Virus record (IMG/VR): IMGVR_UViG_3300050821_006883
Location: 1-40,289 of that record
Strand: one strand, 5' to 3'
Length of the DNA stretch: 40,289 nucleotides
Origin: a virus
Shown here piece after piece: positions 22,177 to 37,961 of this stretch (position 1 is its first letter; the number at the start of each line of letters is the position of its first letter). Below the pieces are notes generated by a model, which saw nothing but the letters and a program-made list of their open reading frames with translations, was not told the DNA's origin and made no database searches. Both the position numbers and the translations under genes were made by a program.

Positions 22177-22334
22177 GAATCAACATCCCGATCACCGGGG
22201 AAATCTACGAGCAGGTGCAGATGGATGCCGACGAGCATTGCCGGTCTAACGGGTCGCAGATTCTTTTTATTCTGCGGGACTGGTATGCGCGGCGTAAGCA
22301 GTTGCAGAGTGTCGATTCAGCAGGAGCGATCTAA
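22149..22334 (+). CDS. Ribbon-helix-helix transcription regulator 2
   Basis: This 61-aa protein has AAAAGGAG before ATG. It reads 'GLRINIPITGEIYEQVQMDA' then 'GSQILFILRDWYARR', again a beta strand plus two helices. Together with the first RHH gene it would replace a classical CI-type repressor, which this phage lacks. The final A of its stop overlaps the integrase ATG (TAATG), so the three genes are co-translated. Confidence 0.65.
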   Translation: MATKVPRGLRINIPITGEIYEQVQMDADEHCRSNGSQILFILRDWYARRKQLQSVDSAGAI

Positions 22335-23569
22335 TGGAAAAGTTCAACGCATGGACCGAAACAACGCAGGCGGGCAGTATCTTGATCCGCTATCGGGACA
22401 CTAAAACGGGAATCAAAAAAACGCACCAGATTGTGCAGAAAGAAGAGCGGGCTTTGATCGACGGAAAATGGCATACCGCCAAATGGCTGGCCGAAGCGCA
22501 CTTGCAGAACCTTCGCAACCTCTACCATTCCAATAAGCTGGGGTTTTCCGCAGCCTCTGAGCCCTTAGAAGAACTTGTAGAAACTTATCTGGAAGAAAAA
22601 AAGAACCTCGCCTGGAAGACCCTTGAGCATTACGAAAGTTCGCTCAATCATTTGAAGGCCGAGTTTTCCAGCACCGCAGAGTTGACCTTGGATCGAATAC
22701 GCGAATGGAAGGCCAAGATGACGCGCACCGGCATTGCCAACAACACACTTCACGGGCGGCTGAACGATTCCAGTATGTTCTGCCGCTGGCTGGTCAAACG
22801 CAAGAAGCTCTCTGAGTCCCCATTTTTGGAAGGGGAAGGCCTCATCCCGGCCCAAACGGCTCCCAAACCACGATTCTATACCACGCAGGAGTTCATGGCC
22901 TTAGATCGCCAATTAGAGGCCTTAAACCACCATGCCAGAGTGGGTTGCCACCTGGCGCGGGACTTTGGGCTGCGAATCGTGGAAATCGTGGGAGATGGGA
23001 TGGAACGAACGCAAGGCGTTTTGTGGGAAGACCTCATCTGGAAGCCGGATGGGAGCGTCGATCTCTTAATTCGCCGGGAAGTGACCAAAGGCCAGAAGAA
23101 GTCGCGCAAGGCCTACCTGGATGCTGACTTCATCCAAATGCTGGGATCGCGCCGTACAGGTCCGCTTGTCCCCTTGGGGCGCTGGGAGTTTGTAAACCTC
23201 TTTGAAAAGGCGCGGGATCAGGCTGGGATTAACCCGGAGCTGACTTTCCATGGCCTGCGGCATACCTTTGGCAAGAACTTCTTGCAGAGGTCAGGGTCGA
23301 ACCAGGCGGCGCTCCGGGACCTCCTGGGCCACACCGATGTCAAGACCACGGAAATCTATTCCCAGTTTGAAGATTCCTACTTGGAAGAGGCGACCAAAAA
23401 AGCCGGGGAAAAAATCCGTGAGGAAGAACAGGTGCTAAAGGCGCGTGGGCAGGCAAAGGGCAAACCTAGCCAAATCATCGAAACCAACGGAAACCTATCG
23501 GAACCAAATGGGACTAATAATGATTCCAAGAATGACTCTAAAAGTGGACAAATTTCTATGGGTTCGTAA
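22334..23569 (+). CDS. int: Tyrosine-recombinase integrase
   Basis: This 411-aa protein has an N-terminal arm-binding part, a core-binding SAM-like domain ('LEELVETYLEEKKNLAWKT') and a C-terminal catalytic domain. Catalytic residues are visible: Arg in 'ARDFGLRIVEI' near residue 214, 'HGLRHTFG' (H-x-x-R) near 306-309, and 'LLGHTDVKTTEIYS' with Gly-His and the nucleophile Tyr near 342. The last 60 residues are hydrophilic and Asn-rich. It lies immediately before the candidate attP at 23586. It would integrate the phage into a tRNA-Thr gene. Confidence 0.9.
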   Translation: MEKFNAWTETTQAGSILIRYRDTKTGIKKTHQIVQKEERALIDGKWHTAKWLAEAHLQNLRNLYHSNKLGFSAASEPLEELVETYLEEKKNLAWKTLEHYESSLNHLKAEFSSTAELTLDRIREWKAKMTRTGIANNTLHGRLNDSSMFCRWLVKRKKLSESPFLEGEGLIPAQTAPKPRFYTTQEFMALDRQLEALNHHARVGCHLARDFGLRIVEIVGDGMERTQGVLWEDLIWKPDGSVDLLIRREVTKGQKKSRKAYLDADFIQMLGSRRTGPLVPLGRWEFVNLFEKARDQAGINPELTFHGLRHTFGKNFLQRSGSNQAALRDLLGHTDVKTTEIYSQFEDSYLEEATKKAGEKIREEEQVLKARGQAKGKPSQIIETNGNLSEPNGTNNDSKNDSKSGQISMGS

Positions 23570-26223: not shown

Positions 26224-26390
26224 CCGAACGACAAATAACTTGGGTTCAAATTGCGGGGGTTAAAATTCCAGCTCATAAATTGATCTGTCCCGAATGCAAA
26301 ACGTTGGATTTGAATACGACAACGGACAAGGACTGGAATGCCCATTGTCCGTTGGGCCACATATGGAAAGTAAGAGAGCCAAAGCCGTGA
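26220..26390 (+). CDS. Small zinc-ribbon protein (56 aa)
   Basis: A GTG start overlaps the previous stop (GTGA). The pattern 'LICPECKTLDL' then 'AHCPLGHIW' gives C-x2-C and C-x3-H for one zinc. It ends in a GTGA overlap with the next gene. Confidence 0.5.
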   Translation: MTERQITWVQIAGVKIPAHKLICPECKTLDLNTTTDKDWNAHCPLGHIWKVREPKP

Positions 26391-26470
26391 CCTGGCCTGA
26401 GTGCATAGCGATTATCGCGGCGCTTGCGGCGGCTTGTGTGATGCTTTGGATCATTTGCAAATATAAGTGA
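26387..26470 (+). CDS. Single-span membrane peptide (27 aa)
   Basis: A GTGA-overlap peptide with one helix 'CIAIIAALAAACVMLWIIC' and a KYK end. It is the last member of the coupled chain before the tRNA at 26479. Confidence 0.4.
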   Translation: MTWPECIAIIAALAAACVMLWIICKYK

Positions 26471-26478
26471 CCGATTTG

Positions 26479-26559
26479 GCATGGGACAGAGTGGATCTGG
26501 GGAGGCCTGTAGAGCCTTTTGGCGAAAGCCTGATGATGGTTCGATTCCATCCCCATGCA
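26479..26559 (+). tRNA. tRNA-Tyr (GUA) with shortened D-arm
   Basis: The acceptor strands GCATGGG (26479-26485) and CCCATGC (26552-26558) pair perfectly, followed by discriminator A at 26559. The anticodon stem GAGGC/GCCTT (with one G-T pair) encloses CTGTAGA with anticodon GTA at 26509-26511. A long variable arm (TT-GGC-GAAA-GCC-TGAT) marks a type II tRNA, as expected for bacterial tRNA-Tyr. The T-arm is canonical (GATGG-TTCGATT-CCATC). Between acceptor and anticodon stem are only 16 bases, so the D-arm is very short. CCA is not encoded. It could be a degenerate gene. Confidence 0.6.
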
Positions 26560-26582
26560 GATTTGGCCCTGCGGCGATCCGC

Positions 26583-26663
26583 GTGGAGCTTTCGGGCGCT
26601 GAGATGCGGAGCATACTTCCGGTTCCGGGCCGGCCAGGGCCATTGGATTTGGAGGATGAATGA
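26583..26663 (+). CDS. Possible 26-aa peptide
   Basis: A GTG frame downstream of the tRNA ends in an ATGA overlap with the next gene, the junction style used across this region. The product is Pro/Gly/Leu-rich. No good ribosome-binding site is seen, so the call is weak. Confidence 0.25.
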   Translation: MELSGAEMRSILPVPGRPGPLDLEDE

Positions 26664-26806
26664 TCGAGATCGAGGAGCATACTTTCTTCTGGTTTGCGGG
26701 TGATTTTTGCCGTGGAACTTCCGAAGATATGAATGATTATCATTATATGTGCGAACGCGCTGGTGAAGAAATTAGCACAGCCCTCGGCGCTCTGGAGGAA
26801 AAATAG
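26660..26806 (+). CDS. Small acidic protein (48 aa)
   Basis: GGAGG precedes the ATG. The product contains 'EEHTFFWFAGDFCRGT' and ends with 'EISTALGALEEK', acidic and partly helical. No known family. Confidence 0.5.
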   Translation: MIEIEEHTFFWFAGDFCRGTSEDMNDYHYMCERAGEEISTALGALEEK

Positions 26807-26827
26807 TGCGTGACAAGGGGAGGCCTG

Positions 26828-27037
26828 ATGCCCAGAGTCATTAACGATGAATTTTCCGCACTTTCGATTTGCCGCCAGAGGCGCTGGCAGCTGCGGCAAG
26901 TCAAAGCCGGGCGTTGTATGATCTGCGGAAGGATGTCGGTCACCCGGCATTATTGTCGGAGACATGCCGACGATAACAGCCGACGTAACCTGAAAGGGGT
27001 TCAGGCGACAAAAAAAAGACTTGACAAGTTGGACTAG
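26828..27037 (+). CDS. Basic zinc-finger protein (69 aa)
   Basis: AGGGGAGG lies before the ATG. The core 'GRCMICGRMSVTRHYCRRHA' (C-x2-C and C-x2-H) with following Arg/Asn-rich sequence is a common small phage zinc protein that may bind nucleic acid. Function is not established. Confidence 0.6.
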   Translation: MPRVINDEFSALSICRQRRWQLRQVKAGRCMICGRMSVTRHYCRRHADDNSRRNLKGVQATKKRLDKLD

Positions 27038-27049
27038 ACTTCCCATAAT
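27021..27049 (+). promoter_or_regulatory. Strong sigma-70-type promoter
   Basis: TTGACA at 27021-27026, a 17-base spacer and CATAAT at 27044-27049 (five of six -10 matches) form the best consensus promoter in the window. It overlaps the end of the zinc-finger gene at 26828. Transcription would start near 27056, giving a leader of about 95 nt before the gene at 27151. Confidence 0.75.
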
Positions 27050-27891: not shown

Positions 27892-28203
27892 ATGGCATGG
27901 AACGGAAGGGGCTACAGGCCGGGAACAAGGGTCCAGCATAAAAATGGGGTAATCTTCGTAAAGACGGAAGATGGGGTTATGGTGGAATCCCGGCGCGTCT
28001 GGGAATTAACTAAAGGCGAGCTATCGGAAGGCGACAAGGTGTATCATATCGACGGGGACCGCACGAACAATAAGCCGAATAATCTGGCGAAGATTCACTT
28101 TAACGCCACCAAGTTCGTGATGCTCAAAGAATCGAAGGTTCTCTGGGCTACTCCGGAGAAATTGAACGCGCAGAAGAACGGGAAGATTCTGATTGCGGCA
28201 TGA
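27892..28203 (+). CDS. HNH-like small protein, partly degenerate
   Basis: This 103-aa protein has 'RRVWELTKGELSEGDKVYHI' followed by 'DGDRTNNKPNNLAKI', the core of HNH_3-type endonucleases. The first His of the usual H-R-x-V-W motif is missing (Arg-Arg in its place) and there is no C-terminal DNA-binding domain. It could be a minimal or inactive nuclease or a DNA-binding regulator. Confidence 0.55.
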   Translation: MAWNGRGYRPGTRVQHKNGVIFVKTEDGVMVESRRVWELTKGELSEGDKVYHIDGDRTNNKPNNLAKIHFNATKFVMLKESKVLWATPEKLNAQKNGKILIAA

Positions 28204-28589: not shown

Positions 28590-29519
28590 ATGTATGGCCT
28601 GGATCTTTTTTCGGGAATCGGCGGCCTTACCCGCGCTCTCACCGGATACGTCACCCCCGTCGCTTACTGTGAAAACGACCGATATGCTCAAGGGGTATTG
28701 CTTTCCCGAATGGCAGCCGGAGACTTGCCCCATGCACCGATTTGGGATGATGTGCAAACCCTCCGGGGATGTGTGTTGCCGGATATCGACATCCTCTATG
28801 GGGGCTTCCCCTGTCAGGACCTTAGCTGTGCAGGAGCTGGAGAAGGTCTGGCAGGCAAGCGTAGCGGGCTTTTTAGCCAGATCGCCAGGCTTACTCGCGA
28901 AATACGACCCCGGTTCGTCTTCCTGGAAAATGTGCCAGCTATCCGGGCTAGAGGAGCCGACGTTGTTGCCGCGACAATGGCCGGCTTGGGGTATGATTGT
29001 CGATGGCTTACTCTATCCGCTGCGGAGGTCGGCGCCAACCATAAAAGGGATCGCTGGTGGTTCCTGGCCTACGCCAACGACGCGGGATTACAAGGACGGG
29101 TCGGCCCGGAGTTGCCAGAACGTCCCGGTCAATTCTCTCCTGGGGCGGGCGGTGCATTGGAGGACTCCGAGCGCAAGCGATTGGAAAAACCGGGGGACAG
29201 CCGAATATCGCAAGAAACACAAGGGCCAGATCATGCTCCAAACGCAAGTGCAGCAATGGCCCTCCCCGGCCGCCTCCCAGATTCACAAGAAAATCCGAAA
29301 ACTAGCGCCATCGGAGAAGGACAAAACCCACGGAACGATGACGGTGGGGGCGATGGGAGAGAAACATCCCGAAACGATTGGTGGTTATTTGAACCCGCAG
29401 TGGGTCGCTTGGCTCATGGGATACCCTTCCGAGTGGACCGACTTAGAGCCCTGGGTAATTCAGTCGTGCCTCTTCAAGCGAGGACGGCTTTTGAAAAACT
29501 TATCGGAATCAAAAAATGA
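28590..29519 (+). CDS. DNA cytosine-5 methyltransferase (Dcm-type)
   Basis: This 309-aa protein methylates cytosine in DNA using SAM. Motif I 'DLFSGIGG' is at residues 5-12, motif IV 'GGFPCQDLS' holds the catalytic Cys75, motif VI 'ENV' is at 113-115, motif VIII 'KRDRWW' at 152-157, and the C-terminal 'RLRALGNSVVP' is motif X. Between about 160 and 260 the chain is Glu/Arg/Gly/Pro-rich and lacks an obvious target-recognition fold, which coincides with the part where the second frame (28594) carries its strongest motifs. Phage methyltransferases often protect DNA from restriction. The ATG is shared with the overprinted gene within four bases. Confidence 0.85.
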   Translation: MYGLDLFSGIGGLTRALTGYVTPVAYCENDRYAQGVLLSRMAAGDLPHAPIWDDVQTLRGCVLPDIDILYGGFPCQDLSCAGAGEGLAGKRSGLFSQIARLTREIRPRFVFLENVPAIRARGADVVAATMAGLGYDCRWLTLSAAEVGANHKRDRWWFLAYANDAGLQGRVGPELPERPGQFSPGAGGALEDSERKRLEKPGDSRISQETQGPDHAPNASAAMALPGRLPDSQENPKTSAIGEGQNPRNDDGGGDGRETSRNDWWLFEPAVGRLAHGIPFRVDRLRALGNSVVPLQARTAFEKLIGIKK

Positions 29520-29556
29520 TTTACCCATACGCTCAAAGAAAAGTCGAAGGTCGTAA
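28594..29556 (+). CDS. Overprinted phage protein in a second frame of the Dcm gene
   Basis: This 320-aa frame starts four bases after the Dcm start, stays open over the whole Dcm gene and 37 bases beyond. Its product has the recognisable layout of a phage protein family I know from Dcm-rich phages: 'MGASPVRTLAVQELEKV' near 69-85, 'GLLAKYDPGSSSWKMCQLSG' near 99-118, 'WPAWGMIVDGLLYPL' near 129-143, 'SWPTPTTRDYKDGSA' near 157-171, a second 'WRTPSASDWKN', and 'LNPQWVAWLMGYPSEWTDLEP' near the C-terminus. The same bases encode Dcm motifs in the other frame. It may be translated by reinitiation or leaky start choice. Function is unknown. Confidence 0.65.
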   Translation: MAWIFFRESAALPALSPDTSPPSLTVKTTDMLKGYCFPEWQPETCPMHRFGMMCKPSGDVCCRISTSSMGASPVRTLAVQELEKVWQASVAGFLARSPGLLAKYDPGSSSWKMCQLSGLEEPTLLPRQWPAWGMIVDGLLYPLRRSAPTIKGIAGGSWPTPTTRDYKDGSARSCQNVPVNSLLGRAVHWRTPSASDWKNRGTAEYRKKHKGQIMLQTQVQQWPSPAASQIHKKIRKLAPSEKDKTHGTMTVGAMGEKHPETIGGYLNPQWVAWLMGYPSEWTDLEPWVIQSCLFKRGRLLKNLSESKNDLPIRSKKSRRS

Positions 29557-29884
29557 GAAGTTGGAGCATCGTCTGGTCATGGAAGCCTATTTGGGGCGTC
29601 CGTTACTGACAACTGAAATTGTCCACCACATCAACCATGACAAGCTGGATAATCGTATCGGGAATCTCCAACTTATAAATGCGAAGGATCATGCTTTTCA
29701 CCACAATAAAAAGCACCCGTACACAAAAATCTGCGTGATTTGCTCAGCTGTTTTTACGCCACATCCGACAAAGCGGGGGCGGAAGCGAACCTGCTCAAAG
29801 GAGTGTCGCTATAAGCTGATCGCCTTGGCTTGGGTGCCCAAGCGCCCTAAACTCCCACCCAAACTCACCCAAAATGGGGCATAG
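29516..29884 (+). CDS. HNH endonuclease with C-terminal zinc ribbon
   Basis: This 122-aa protein starts at an ATG overlapping the Dcm TGA. 'KKLEHRLVMEAYLGRPL' and 'EIVHHINHDKLDNRIGNLQLI' form the HNH core (H-R-x-V and H-H-I-N-H-D-x-x-D-N). The C-terminal half has 'CVICSAVFTPHPTKRGRKRTC' plus a further Cys for a zinc ribbon. It could be a homing enzyme or a nuclease that works with the methylase. Location right after a methyltransferase leaves both options. Confidence 0.8.
   Translation: MIYPYAQRKVEGRKKLEHRLVMEAYLGRPLLTTEIVHHINHDKLDNRIGNLQLINAKDHAFHHNKKHPYTKICVICSAVFTPHPTKRGRKRTCSKECRYKLIALAWVPKRPKLPPKLTQNGA
29867..29879. promoter_or_regulatory. Palindrome ACCCAAAATGGGG (operator-like site)
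   Basis: This site matches the 33101 operator ACCCAAAATGGGT in all but the last base. It lies inside the end of the HNH gene, about 40 bases before the gene at 29917. It may regulate a weak promoter here. A chance match is possible. Confidence 0.4.
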
Positions 29885-34026: not shown

Positions 34027-34208
34027 AGCATCTGGCTTCTTCTCCTTGGTGGCAGAGAATTTACAAGCAGATGACGACCAAGGGGTACGTCTTGGTGAGC
34101 GAGCCGTCGAAGAAGGCCGGAGTTTTCGTGGCGCGGTGGGTCAAGCCCGACTCTCTGATTAACGTCCCGTCTTTTCGTCGGTGGTATGCGCTTGAAAAGG
34201 CGCTATGA
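34023..34208 (+). CDS. Small basic protein (61 aa)
   Basis: The ATG and stop both overlap neighbours (ATGA). The chain is basic and aromatic ('SSPWWQRIYKQMTTKGYVLV', 'FVARWVKPDSL'), suggesting a nucleic-acid-binding or terminase-associated protein. No family recognised. Confidence 0.55.
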   Translation: MKHLASSPWWQRIYKQMTTKGYVLVSEPSKKAGVFVARWVKPDSLINVPSFRRWYALEKAL

Positions 34209-35686
34209 ATCCCTTGGAAGCCAAGGCGATCATTCAGAAGAACGCGGATCTCTGCATTGCGAATTTAAAGTTTCTGTGCGTGCAGTATCTGGATACCAAG
34301 GACTGGTCGCCGGGTGTCCACGACGAACTGACGAGATTTTTGAAGGTGGCCGGCCGGAGGATTCACATAGAACTCCCGAGGGGTCATTTGAAGAGCTGGA
34401 TTGTGACGAAGGGCTGGGCGATTCAGCAGATGCTCAGGAACCCGGATGTGCGGATACTGATAGTGAATGCGACGGAGGATAACGCGGTCAAGTTCATGCG
34501 CACCATTGAGCGGTACCTGGCGGCTGGGGGTTTGATGTCGCAGATGTTCGGGACGTTCGAATCGGCGGTATGGAACCAGAACGAGCTGGTGATCAGGCAG
34601 AGAAGAAAGAATCTGGACGCCCCGACCTTCATGGCCGCCGGTTTGCAGAAGACGCTGACCAGCCAGCACTTCGACGTGATTATTGCCGACGATCTGGTGG
34701 AGCCGGACAACGTACGCACCAAGGAGCAGCGCGACAAGGTCTACGAGTTTTATCTCTCGCTCTTTGATCTGTTAGAGCCCGACGGCAAGATGGTGGTGAT
34801 CGGAACGCGCTACCACCAGGACGACCTCTACGCGAGGATTTTAGAGGAGAATGCGGTCCACAAGAACTGGTCGGTGTTTATCCGTTCCTGCTACAAGCCC
34901 GACGGGTCGGTCATTTTCCCGGAGAAGTTTACGGAGGCGCAATTAAACGATATCAAGAAGAAGAGCTTCTACCATTTCTCGACGCAGTATTTAAACGATC
35001 CGATCGATCCGGAGAACGCCGACTTTAAGGCGGGGCAGATTAAAATCTACGATCCCGCGACTGCGCATCCGGCGAGCTTATATCTGACGATCGATCCGGC
35101 GATCGCGCTTTCGCGCGACGCGGACTACACGGCCTTCGTGGTGGCCGGGATGTTCGCCGACCGGAGAATCCGCGTGGTGGACGCTGTGCACAAAAGGCTG
35201 GTTCCTTCGGAACTGGTGGAAGAGGTCTTTGCTCTCGTCAAGAAATGGAGGCTCCACCGTGTCGGCATCGAAACCTTCGCCTTCCAGAAAACGCTCAAGT
35301 ACGACATCCAGCGCCAGCAACGAGAGCGAGGAATCTTTTTTTCGATTGACGAGCTTGGAAAACGCCACACCGGCCACGGTGAAGCAATTCTTTCTAAAGA
35401 GGCCAGAATTCGCCGGTTGCAGCCTTACTTCGAGCAGGGGCTATTTGAGATCCGATCCGACATGCAGGATCTTAGTGACGAACTGCTGGCTTTTCCCCGA
35501 GGAAAGCACGATGATTTAATCGACGCCCTTTCCTACCAGCTCGATTATCTGGTCCCCAGCATGGGGGTCGGTGTTCGCGAGCCCGAGATGAAAGAAGGGA
35601 CGATGGGTTGGTGGGTCAAGGAACATATGCCGGAGTTCAGGCAGTCGATCTACGACCGGTTTTTCGAGGATTTAAAGGTTCGATGA
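34205..35686 (+). CDS. terL: Large terminase subunit
   Basis: This 493-aa protein is the DNA-packaging motor. The ATPase half has a Walker-A-like 'ELPRGHLKSW' near residues 56-65 and Walker B 'DVIIADDL' near 156-163; 'MVVIGTRYHQDD' near 200 matches the coupling motif. The nuclease half has 'LTIDPAIA' near 293, 'GIETFAFQK' near 355 and 'KHDDLIDALSYQLDYL' near 434-449 with the catalytic acids. Length is normal for the family. It starts in an ATGA overlap and is followed by a small gene and the portal. Confidence 0.9.
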   Translation: MNPLEAKAIIQKNADLCIANLKFLCVQYLDTKDWSPGVHDELTRFLKVAGRRIHIELPRGHLKSWIVTKGWAIQQMLRNPDVRILIVNATEDNAVKFMRTIERYLAAGGLMSQMFGTFESAVWNQNELVIRQRRKNLDAPTFMAAGLQKTLTSQHFDVIIADDLVEPDNVRTKEQRDKVYEFYLSLFDLLEPDGKMVVIGTRYHQDDLYARILEENAVHKNWSVFIRSCYKPDGSVIFPEKFTEAQLNDIKKKSFYHFSTQYLNDPIDPENADFKAGQIKIYDPATAHPASLYLTIDPAIALSRDADYTAFVVAGMFADRRIRVVDAVHKRLVPSELVEEVFALVKKWRLHRVGIETFAFQKTLKYDIQRQQRERGIFFSIDELGKRHTGHGEAILSKEARIRRLQPYFEQGLFEIRSDMQDLSDELLAFPRGKHDDLIDALSYQLDYLVPSMGVGVREPEMKEGTMGWWVKEHMPEFRQSIYDRFFEDLKVR

Positions 35687-35847
35687 CGAAAAAAGAGCGG
35701 ATCGATTATGCGGTGCATCTTTACGAAGAGCGCTACGGGCCCGTCAGGCGCGTGGTGTGTGACAACCTGGAGGATTACCTGACCAAAGGTTTTCACGAAC
35801 CGGGCATCATCGATCGCTGCATGGCTATTTTGCAGGAGATTCAATGA
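35683..35847 (+). CDS. Small late protein (54 aa)
   Basis: It lies between terminase and portal with ATGA overlaps on both sides. The product is helical and charged ('KKERIDYAVHLYEERYG', 'IIDRCMAILQEI'). No family recognised. Confidence 0.6.
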   Translation: MTKKERIDYAVHLYEERYGPVRRVVCDNLEDYLTKGFHEPGIIDRCMAILQEIQ

Positions 35848-37961
35848 AGAAAGAAGACCTGGTCGGCGTCGGGGAAACGCCCAATCCGGATTCCGAAAAG
35901 CTGGAGGTGGAGAGTTGGCTGCGCACGATGACCCACGCGGAAAAGACGGCTGAGGACGCGGGCGCCAAGGCCGGCTGGAAACGCTATATCGAGGAGTACA
36001 AAAACGAGTGGGGATTTTTGCAGGCCAAGACCTCCATTCCCATTATTCCGATCAACCTCATTTACGCCTATACCAAGACCGAGATTGCGCGGTTGTACTT
36101 TAAGGATCCTTGGATTACGGTTAATCCCAAGAGGATGGAAGATATCGGCGCGGCGCAACTGGCCGAGCAGATCGTGAACTATACGTGGTCGGAACTGGCG
36201 CTAAAGCAGGAAATTAAGACGGCGCTCTTAGAAGCCATCCTGGTCGGCCACAGTTACGTGAAGGTGGGCTACGCCGCCGAGTTCGGGACCGTGGAGTCGC
36301 AGCCCAAAGAGCCGCCCAAGAGGGGGCCCGGCCGGCCGAAAAACGAGCCCAAAGCCAGGGAAATCGAGACCTCCGAGTATATCCGTTCGGAGAACGTGTT
36401 CGCCTACCACGTCCCGTACAAAGATATTCTTTTTGATCCGGCGGCGACCTTTCCGGCGACGCACAACGGCCGCTGGATGGCGCATAAGATCGTAAAGCCC
36501 TTGCGGGCGGTCAAAAGGGCCGGCATCTACGCGCATACCGACATGCTGAAAACCTCCTCCAAAGGCGATGACGAGAAGCTCGGCTACGACGTCTCCGGCG
36601 GATCGGCGGGCAAGGAAAACCAGGACGTCAGGAGCGTGACGCTCTACGAGATTTACGATCTGGACTCGATGCGGGTCGTGACGGTGTCGCAGGGATGTCC
36701 CTTCTATTTAAACGAGATCCCGTATCCTGAATACCTGTCGGGGGGCTTCCCCTTTTCGATGCTGGCCTTTAATCCCGTTCCGGGAGAGGTTTATCCCTTA
36801 TCCGACGTGGCCGCGCAGGAGGGTCTGGCCATCGAGATGACCAAGATCGTGGCCATCTGGATCAATCACTTAAAGCGCCACAACCGCCAGATTTTAATTG
36901 AGCCGGACTTGTTTACCGACGCCGAGCTTGACAAATTTAAGGACGGCAACGACGGCGCCATCATCAAGGCCAACGGGCCCATCGCCGACAAGTATTTTAT
37001 TCCGCAGTACCCGGCGGTGGCCAGCGACAGCTACCAGATCTACAACGAGGCGTACAAGCTCTACCAGGTGGTGTCGGGACAAACCCCTGCCGACCAGGGC
37101 GGGCAGGCCAAGGCCCCCACGCGCACTCTGGGGGAACTCCGGCTCCAGATGATGGGCGGGCACGCGAGGGCGGATGAGAAGGTGGACGTGCTGGAGGATT
37201 TTATCGGGGAGATCGCCCGCAAGATTCTGGGAATCATGCAGAAAAAGTACGACCTTCCGAAGATCTCGCGGATCGTGGGAAACAAGTCCGTGCAGCAGAA
37301 GGTCCTCGGCGCTCTTCCCGGCCGCCCTTCGGCGCAGTCGCAAGTCGCTCCCCAGGGGCAAGCCCCCCAAGGCCAGGGGCCCCAGGGGCAATCGCCCCAG
37401 GCTCCTGGCGGCGCCCCCCAGACGCCGCCGGCGCCGAACCCTGTGGCCGATCAATCCTTTGCCTCGGAGTTCGCTTTTTCCTGGAACCGTCAGGATATTC
37501 TGGGCGACATGGACGTGGACGTTGTGGCGGGGTCCACCGTTCCGATGGACAAGGAATCCACCTTGGAGATCATGGAAAAATTAATCCCGATGCTCCCCGC
37601 CGCCGGGGTCACTCCCGGCAGTCCCGCCGCCAAACAGTACGCGCGGGAAATCTTTCGTCTCATCGGCAACCAGTCTCTGGAGGCGATCATGGATCTGGCC
37701 GACCAGTCGCCGCCGCAGATGCCGCCCAAGCTCATGGAAATCCAGGCGAAAGTGAAAGCCAAGGAGCAGGAGACGCAGGTGAAGATTCAGGGCAAGTTGG
37801 CGGAAGAAAAGATCAAGCTCGAATCCATGCACCAGAAATTGGCCGTGGACAAACAGAAAAACCAGATGGACATGCACAAAAACGTGATCAATTCCATTTT
37901 ACAGGGCGTACGCGCCGCGCAAACGCCCGTGGGCGGACAGGAGAACGGCAATGGCTTCTAA
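35844..37961 (+). CDS. Portal protein
   Basis: This 705-aa protein is long, as P22-like portals are. It has an N-terminal helical start ('KTAEDAGAKAGWKRYIEEYK'), a central region with 'IPIIPINLIYAYTKTEIARLYF' at about 65-85, a long wing/stem region, a Gln/Gly/Pro-rich stretch at about 500-535 that is probably disordered, and a C-terminal helical barrel from about 630 with repeated 'KVKAKEQETQVKIQGKLAEE' heptads. It forms the dodecameric DNA gate of the capsid. The order terminase, portal, scaffold, capsid is standard. Confidence 0.8.
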   Translation: MKKEDLVGVGETPNPDSEKLEVESWLRTMTHAEKTAEDAGAKAGWKRYIEEYKNEWGFLQAKTSIPIIPINLIYAYTKTEIARLYFKDPWITVNPKRMEDIGAAQLAEQIVNYTWSELALKQEIKTALLEAILVGHSYVKVGYAAEFGTVESQPKEPPKRGPGRPKNEPKAREIETSEYIRSENVFAYHVPYKDILFDPAATFPATHNGRWMAHKIVKPLRAVKRAGIYAHTDMLKTSSKGDDEKLGYDVSGGSAGKENQDVRSVTLYEIYDLDSMRVVTVSQGCPFYLNEIPYPEYLSGGFPFSMLAFNPVPGEVYPLSDVAAQEGLAIEMTKIVAIWINHLKRHNRQILIEPDLFTDAELDKFKDGNDGAIIKANGPIADKYFIPQYPAVASDSYQIYNEAYKLYQVVSGQTPADQGGQAKAPTRTLGELRLQMMGGHARADEKVDVLEDFIGEIARKILGIMQKKYDLPKISRIVGNKSVQQKVLGALPGRPSAQSQVAPQGQAPQGQGPQGQSPQAPGGAPQTPPAPNPVADQSFASEFAFSWNRQDILGDMDVDVVAGSTVPMDKESTLEIMEKLIPMLPAAGVTPGSPAAKQYAREIFRLIGNQSLEAIMDLADQSPPQMPPKLMEIQAKVKAKEQETQVKIQGKLAEEKIKLESMHQKLAVDKQKNQMDMHKNVINSILQGVRAAQTPVGGQENGNGF

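Follow-up and report, generated by a model that had tools for sequence, protein, structure and literature searches.

M.EcoHK31I and M.EaeI are cytosine-5 methyltransferases that consist of two polypeptides. As Lee et al. reportedly described in 1995, the gene for the large subunit of M.EcoHK31I also encodes the small subunit, in an alternative frame. In this enzyme, motifs I-VIII and X lie in the large polypeptide and motif IX in the small one, while the predicted recognition domain belongs to the large subunit, not to the small (PMC3404938). M.AquI also consists of two polypeptides, one with motifs I-VIII and the other with motifs IX-X (PMC3404938). Here I compare with these systems a phage locus in which the same ~930 bases most probably encode, in two frames, two chains (alpha and beta) of one cytosine-5 methyltransferase.

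The DNA studied is the phage record IMGVR_UViG_3300050821_006883, positions 1 to 40,289, and this whole stretch of 40,289 nucleotides is called the window. It encodes an integrase (22334-23569, PHROG), a terminase large subunit (34205-35686) and a portal protein (35844-37961), and the phage is probably a temperate, tailed one. All the features of the enzyme lie on the plus strand. ORF1 (28590-29519, 309 aa) is the alpha chain with the catalytic domain of a C5 DNA methyltransferase, and ORF2 (28594-29556, 320 aa, +1 frame) is the beta chain with an N-terminal module, a WPTP-repeat region (presumed recognition) and motif IX. The two frames of 309 and 320 codons given in the preliminary description were found exactly there, with their ATGs 4 bases apart. 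HNH_3 endonuclease-like ORFs lie on both sides of the methyltransferase, at 27892-28203 and at 29516-29884. The latter (plus strand, Pfam HNH_3 4.2e-11) is a neighbour outside the enzyme; since its first bases fall in the stop codon of ORF1 and it also runs over the end of ORF2, three ORFs overlap near 29516. By Pfam, no partner restriction gene was identified beside the methyltransferase in the window, only the HNH_3 genes. A tRNA-Tyr gene (26479-26559) was also found within the region spanned by the minus-strand ORFs 26260-26643 and 26273-27046.

ORF1 had been described as a cytosine-5 methyltransferase with motifs I, IV, VI, VIII and X, and this is supported by its matches to Pfam DNA_methylase (7.3e-34, ending at residue 168), PHROG 363 (2.7e-58) and M.HhaI (1.3e-21, confined to residues 4-173). 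All five motifs are present. Motif I (DLFSGIGG, 28602-28625) is read directly and is conserved in alignment A3, and motif IV (GFPCQD, 28803-28820) contains the catalytic Cys and reads ASPVRT in the +1 frame. In motif VI (ENV, 28926-28934), E113 and N114 are invariant and V115 nearly so. The invariant residues are H151, R153 and R155 in motif VIII (HKRDR, 29040-29054) and L288, G289, N290 and V292 in motif X (LGNSVVP, residues 288-294, 29451-29471). A canonical motif IX and a recognition region are absent from the ORF1 chain, and motif IX was found in ORF2. As a null model, the synonymous codons of one frame were shuffled and the other frame was then scored. The resulting z values rank regions and are no probabilities, because they rest on 60 shuffles and on related sequences; beyond the constraint from ORF2, alpha has z 29-41 at residues 2-165 and z 15-18 at residues 274-309 (z 18 at 286-309), and just 0.2-7 at residues 166-258, which are barely conserved. 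The C-terminal EPxVGRxAxGxP of alpha is itself selected (z 7-15), so alpha may retain a partial substitute for motif IX.

ORF2 matches PHROG 1008 (2.3e-26), a family labelled 'DNA methyltransferase'. Pfam and NCBIfam gave no match for ORF2, Pfam across 69 ORF2 homologues gave chance matches only, the ORF2 profile matched no solved methyltransferase among the PDB sequences, and an AlphaFold model of ORF2 alone, poor in confidence (pLDDT 59), had no fold match. The chain carries WPTP at 29065-29076 (T160 and P161 nearly invariant), a WPTP-like WRTP at 29158-29169 (z 7-10 for the W, T and P columns) and a WPTP-like WPSP at 29257-29268, the last read from the translation. From the WPSP repeat on, 62 aa of ORF2 align at 55% identity with the +1 frame of Paenibacillus phage Harrison. 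Then follows GGYLNPQWVAWLMGYPSEWTDL at 29380-29445 (z 30), where alpha reads EPAVGRLAHGIPFRVDRL from the same bases. In every region, ORF2 is conserved above the prediction based on ORF1. The excess over the synonymous null is lowest at GFPCQD/ASPVRT (ORF2 region 70-80, z just 2.6), amounts to z 13-20 across residues 81-160 of the N-terminal module, and peaks at LNPQWVAWLMGYP (region 259-285, z 30). It was confirmed that GFPCQD shares its bases with ASPVRT, and EPAVGRLAHG with LNPQWVAWLMG. The preliminary description had regarded the motifs of the second frame as Dcm motifs read out of frame. For ASPVRT this mostly holds, as it is largely an echo, whereas LNPQWV, with its z of 30, is not.

The conserved end of ORF2, LNPxWVxWLMGYPxxWT, is motif IX of the cytosine-5 methyltransferases. 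This identification follows from single-chain equivalents and from collinearity with known enzymes. In three related loci (L157-L159), motifs I-VIII and motif X share one frame with WPTP-type segments and L(N/S)PxWVExLMxYPxGWTD. When 61 ORF2 homologues were combined into a profile, hhalign matched it to residues 198-313 of L159 (probability 98.9, E 1e-17). The motif of L157 is collinear with M.HhaI 272-289, RKLHPRECARVMGYPDSY, a piece that alone scores nothing, and the canonical methylase L156 has RRLTPRECERLMGWPEDH at the motif IX position. Thus, ORF2 is not the distinct phage protein family that it had been taken for, since its WPTP and motif IX module lies in frame within single-chain methyltransferases. 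The second frame is strong where Dcm has no recognition fold because that part of the enzyme has apparently moved to the second frame. An origin of the second protein's family by overprinting on Dcm had been suggested. This is a good reading for the N-terminal ~150 residues only, as the N-terminal half is selected while Pfam and PDB contain no homologue of it, which de novo overprinting would fit; the C-terminal half is methyltransferase sequence instead.

How common is the split in other phages? The frame layout was surveyed in 253 loci, a set that is partly redundant and biased by the fetching route; 221 of them have motif IX in the +1 frame with motif X in the catalytic frame, five (4 distinct) have all motifs in one frame, and three have motifs IX and X together in the +1 frame. 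Acinetobacter phage ABMM1, Klebsiella phage VLCpiM12a, Paenibacillus phages Harrison and Toothless and Mycobacterium phage Hades are named examples of the two-frame layout. Motifs IX and X share the +1 frame in phiBT1, in Streptomyces phage Samy and, in addition to the three loci of the survey, in Mycobacterium phage Eris, and Mycobacterium phage RitaG provides another single-chain enzyme. L157-L159 form one clade (100/100) beside two-frame relatives in a catalytic-domain tree whose root is uncertain. Their +1 frame has a beta-like N-terminal reading with the first WPTP (E 1e-16 to 1e-19). The +1 frame of another single-chain locus (L155, 2867-3913) likewise reads a beta-like N-terminal module and the first WPTP repeat. 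In all four loci, the remainder of beta looks as though it had been transferred to the frame of alpha, and descent of L157-L159 from a two-frame ancestor by re-joining would be the simpler story. In an AlphaFold model of L157, the catalytic domain alone is confident, so the model does not show the beta-like part to be the small domain. In L021 (1541-2911), the catalytic motifs are in frame with WPTP repeats and LNPQWVAWLMGYP and motif X is in another frame, which may reflect either swapped frames or a faulty assembly. A Paenibacillus bovis plasmid (L262) has an unannotated two-frame methyltransferase with motif IX in the +1 frame ~920 bases after the catalytic start; a second motif-IX-like match lies ~600 bases further in a different frame.

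These relatives also bear on the best surviving alternative, in which ORF2 is an independent overprinted protein with a function other than methylation, for example anti-restriction. The independent selection on its N-terminal half (z up to 20), which has no Pfam or PDB homologue, agrees with such a protein. I nevertheless consider it unlikely, as the single-chain relatives read the C-terminal half in one frame with the methyltransferase core and ORF2 holds motif IX where alpha has no canonical one. Moreover, almost every locus examined has ORF2 lying across a Dcm gene, a point that the preliminary description had left to be checked, and ORF2 sits at a Dcm gene in those where the catalytic domain was detected.

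The two chains of the presumed enzyme have a coupled start, ATGTATG (28590-28596), in which the ORF1 ATG is at 28590 and the ORF2 ATG at 28594. The ORF2 start is offset by +4 in 22 and by +7 in 33 of 80 loci, the window included (55/80 together), and the first ORF2 residues M, A, W and I have z 7-9 over the synonymous null. In more distant loci, the open frame of ORF2 begins about 157 bases in. The closeness of the starts and the selected M-A-W-I point to translation of beta by independent initiation, from a landing site common to both chains, rather than by frameshifting. Programmed frameshifting would join motifs I-VIII of alpha to the recognition region and motif IX of beta in one chain. 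Single-chain relatives do exist, and a single shift would suffice for phiBT1, Samy and Eris, where motifs IX and X share a frame. In the window, however, the ribosome would have to shift twice, first to the +1 frame and then back, and the selected first residues and N-terminal half of beta would be unexplained if they were never translated. For these two reasons, frameshifting was rejected as the main route, and I regard it as very unlikely.

Is the second frame a genuine gene? For this question, 80 viral loci were fetched using ORF1 alone, so that ORF2 had no influence on which loci were taken. In all 80, the +1 frame stays open over a long run (228-366 codons), and an ORF2 relative is encoded in the +1 frame of 79 (tblastn). 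The locus without an ORF2 match (L138) has a +1 frame open for 240 codons. Relative to synonymous shuffles of ORF1, stops are depleted in the +1 frame (193 observed, 723 expected) and not in the +2 frame (1355 observed, 1296 expected). In the reverse test, with the ORF2 codons shuffled, 86 stops were observed in the other frame against 780 expected. The mean longest +1 run falls from 274 codons to 100 after ORF1 is shuffled; in the window, the run is 308 codons against a shuffled mean of 134, and p<=0.005 was obtained for 75 of 81 genes. The median score against ORF2 is 111 bits for the real homologues and 42 bits for the shuffles, although a partial echo remains, with 31% of the synonymously shuffled homologues still exceeding 50 bits. 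Frequent stops in the second frame and a lack of selection on it, the signs of a chance frame according to the preliminary description, were looked for and not seen; the +1 stops are depleted about four-fold. Since selection acts in both directions, both frames are selected, with the work of the enzyme shared unequally. ORF1 and ORF2 are both genuine genes, each under its own selection. A chance open frame kept by composition and Dcm conservation, with which only the 31% echo would agree, is refuted by the selection tests in both directions, the stop depletion limited to +1, the gap between the median scores and the z of 30 at motif IX, and is thus extremely improbable.

In the proposed two-chain enzyme, alpha would contribute motif X and, with motifs I-VIII, the AdoMet and catalytic core. 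Beta would provide the variable WPTP-repeat region, probably for target recognition, and motif IX, and its N-terminal half, overprinted on the catalytic core of alpha, probably serves dimerisation. Selection in the variable region is somewhat stronger in beta than in alpha, so target recognition in beta is favoured rather than proven. Because the starts are 4 bases apart, a single ribosome-landing site should serve both chains and link their expression. Alpha and beta would then assemble into an active methyltransferase acting on the phage DNA. Orphan phage methyltransferases usually protect phage DNA, and methylation here would probably shield it from host restriction. I infer the physical complex, its activity, its target site and its protective role.

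I give an even chance to a broader reading, that the locus represents a large and old phage-wide class of C5 methyltransferases with nearly the whole gene dual-coding, with motif IX and recognition migrating between the frames, and with a beta N-terminus born by overprinting. In full, the subunits of this class would start a few bases apart, and motif IX and recognition would be found in beta only, in beta with motif X, or back in alpha. The two-frame layout is already known from one bacterial enzyme, but here it proves to be old, it occurs widely among phages, and their annotations usually overlook it. More than 220 of the fetched loci share the split layout, many of them in named phages with one frame annotated. 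Few near-complete same-strand overlaps with clear selection on both products are known from DNA phages. Hundreds of natural examples, together with the single-chain and frame-swapped relatives, make the origin and upkeep of dual coding directly testable.

In most named records, the alpha frame alone is annotated, and in Klebsiella phage VLCpiM12a and Synechococcus phage Sc-Yong805-2, the beta frame alone. Named phage records of this kind, with beta annotated and the catalytic frame not, include L002 (1503-2378, 'DNA methyltransferase') and L171 (1318-2247, 'hypothetical protein'). Many 'DNA methyltransferase' annotations in phages thus name half an enzyme, with consequences for cloning, for specificity calls and for database families such as PHROG 1008 against PHROG 363. 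The label of PHROG 1008 (ORF2) omits that it is the other-frame half of an enzyme whose ORF1 is PHROG 363. A literature search, with most subscription papers outside its coverage, found no account of an overlapping-frame phage Dcm. The pairing is already partly visible, since both frames are annotated as cytosine methyltransferase or DNA methylase in Paenibacillus phage Toothless (genes 53/54) and Mycobacterium phage Eris (78/77), where HMMs detect the same modules as in ORF1 and ORF2. The records read for these two phages do not comment on a two-frame enzyme, and Eris has motif X in beta, unlike the window.

M.EaeI and M.EcoHK31I were not found among the plasmids. The nearest enterobacterial match (L254, Klebsiella aerogenes) was set aside, being phage-like and frame-shifted and not an identified EaeI system. 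The layout of M.AquI resembles that of phiBT1, Samy and Eris; the window, by contrast, has motif X in alpha and two genes that overlap over nearly their full length. M.EcoHK31I, compared by its published layout and not by sequence, has the same motif split as alpha and beta. Its second polypeptide reportedly also comes from an overlapping alternative frame, and in the window ORF2 is supported by the dual selection. Unlike M.EcoHK31I, the window enzyme is encoded by a phage and no restriction enzyme was identified as its partner, and its recognition region is favoured to lie in beta, while that of M.EcoHK31I is predicted in the large subunit. The window beta also differs in its 320 aa, as long as alpha, in its start 4 bases later and in its selected N-terminal module. 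What makes the finding interesting is its breadth, together with the near-complete overlap.
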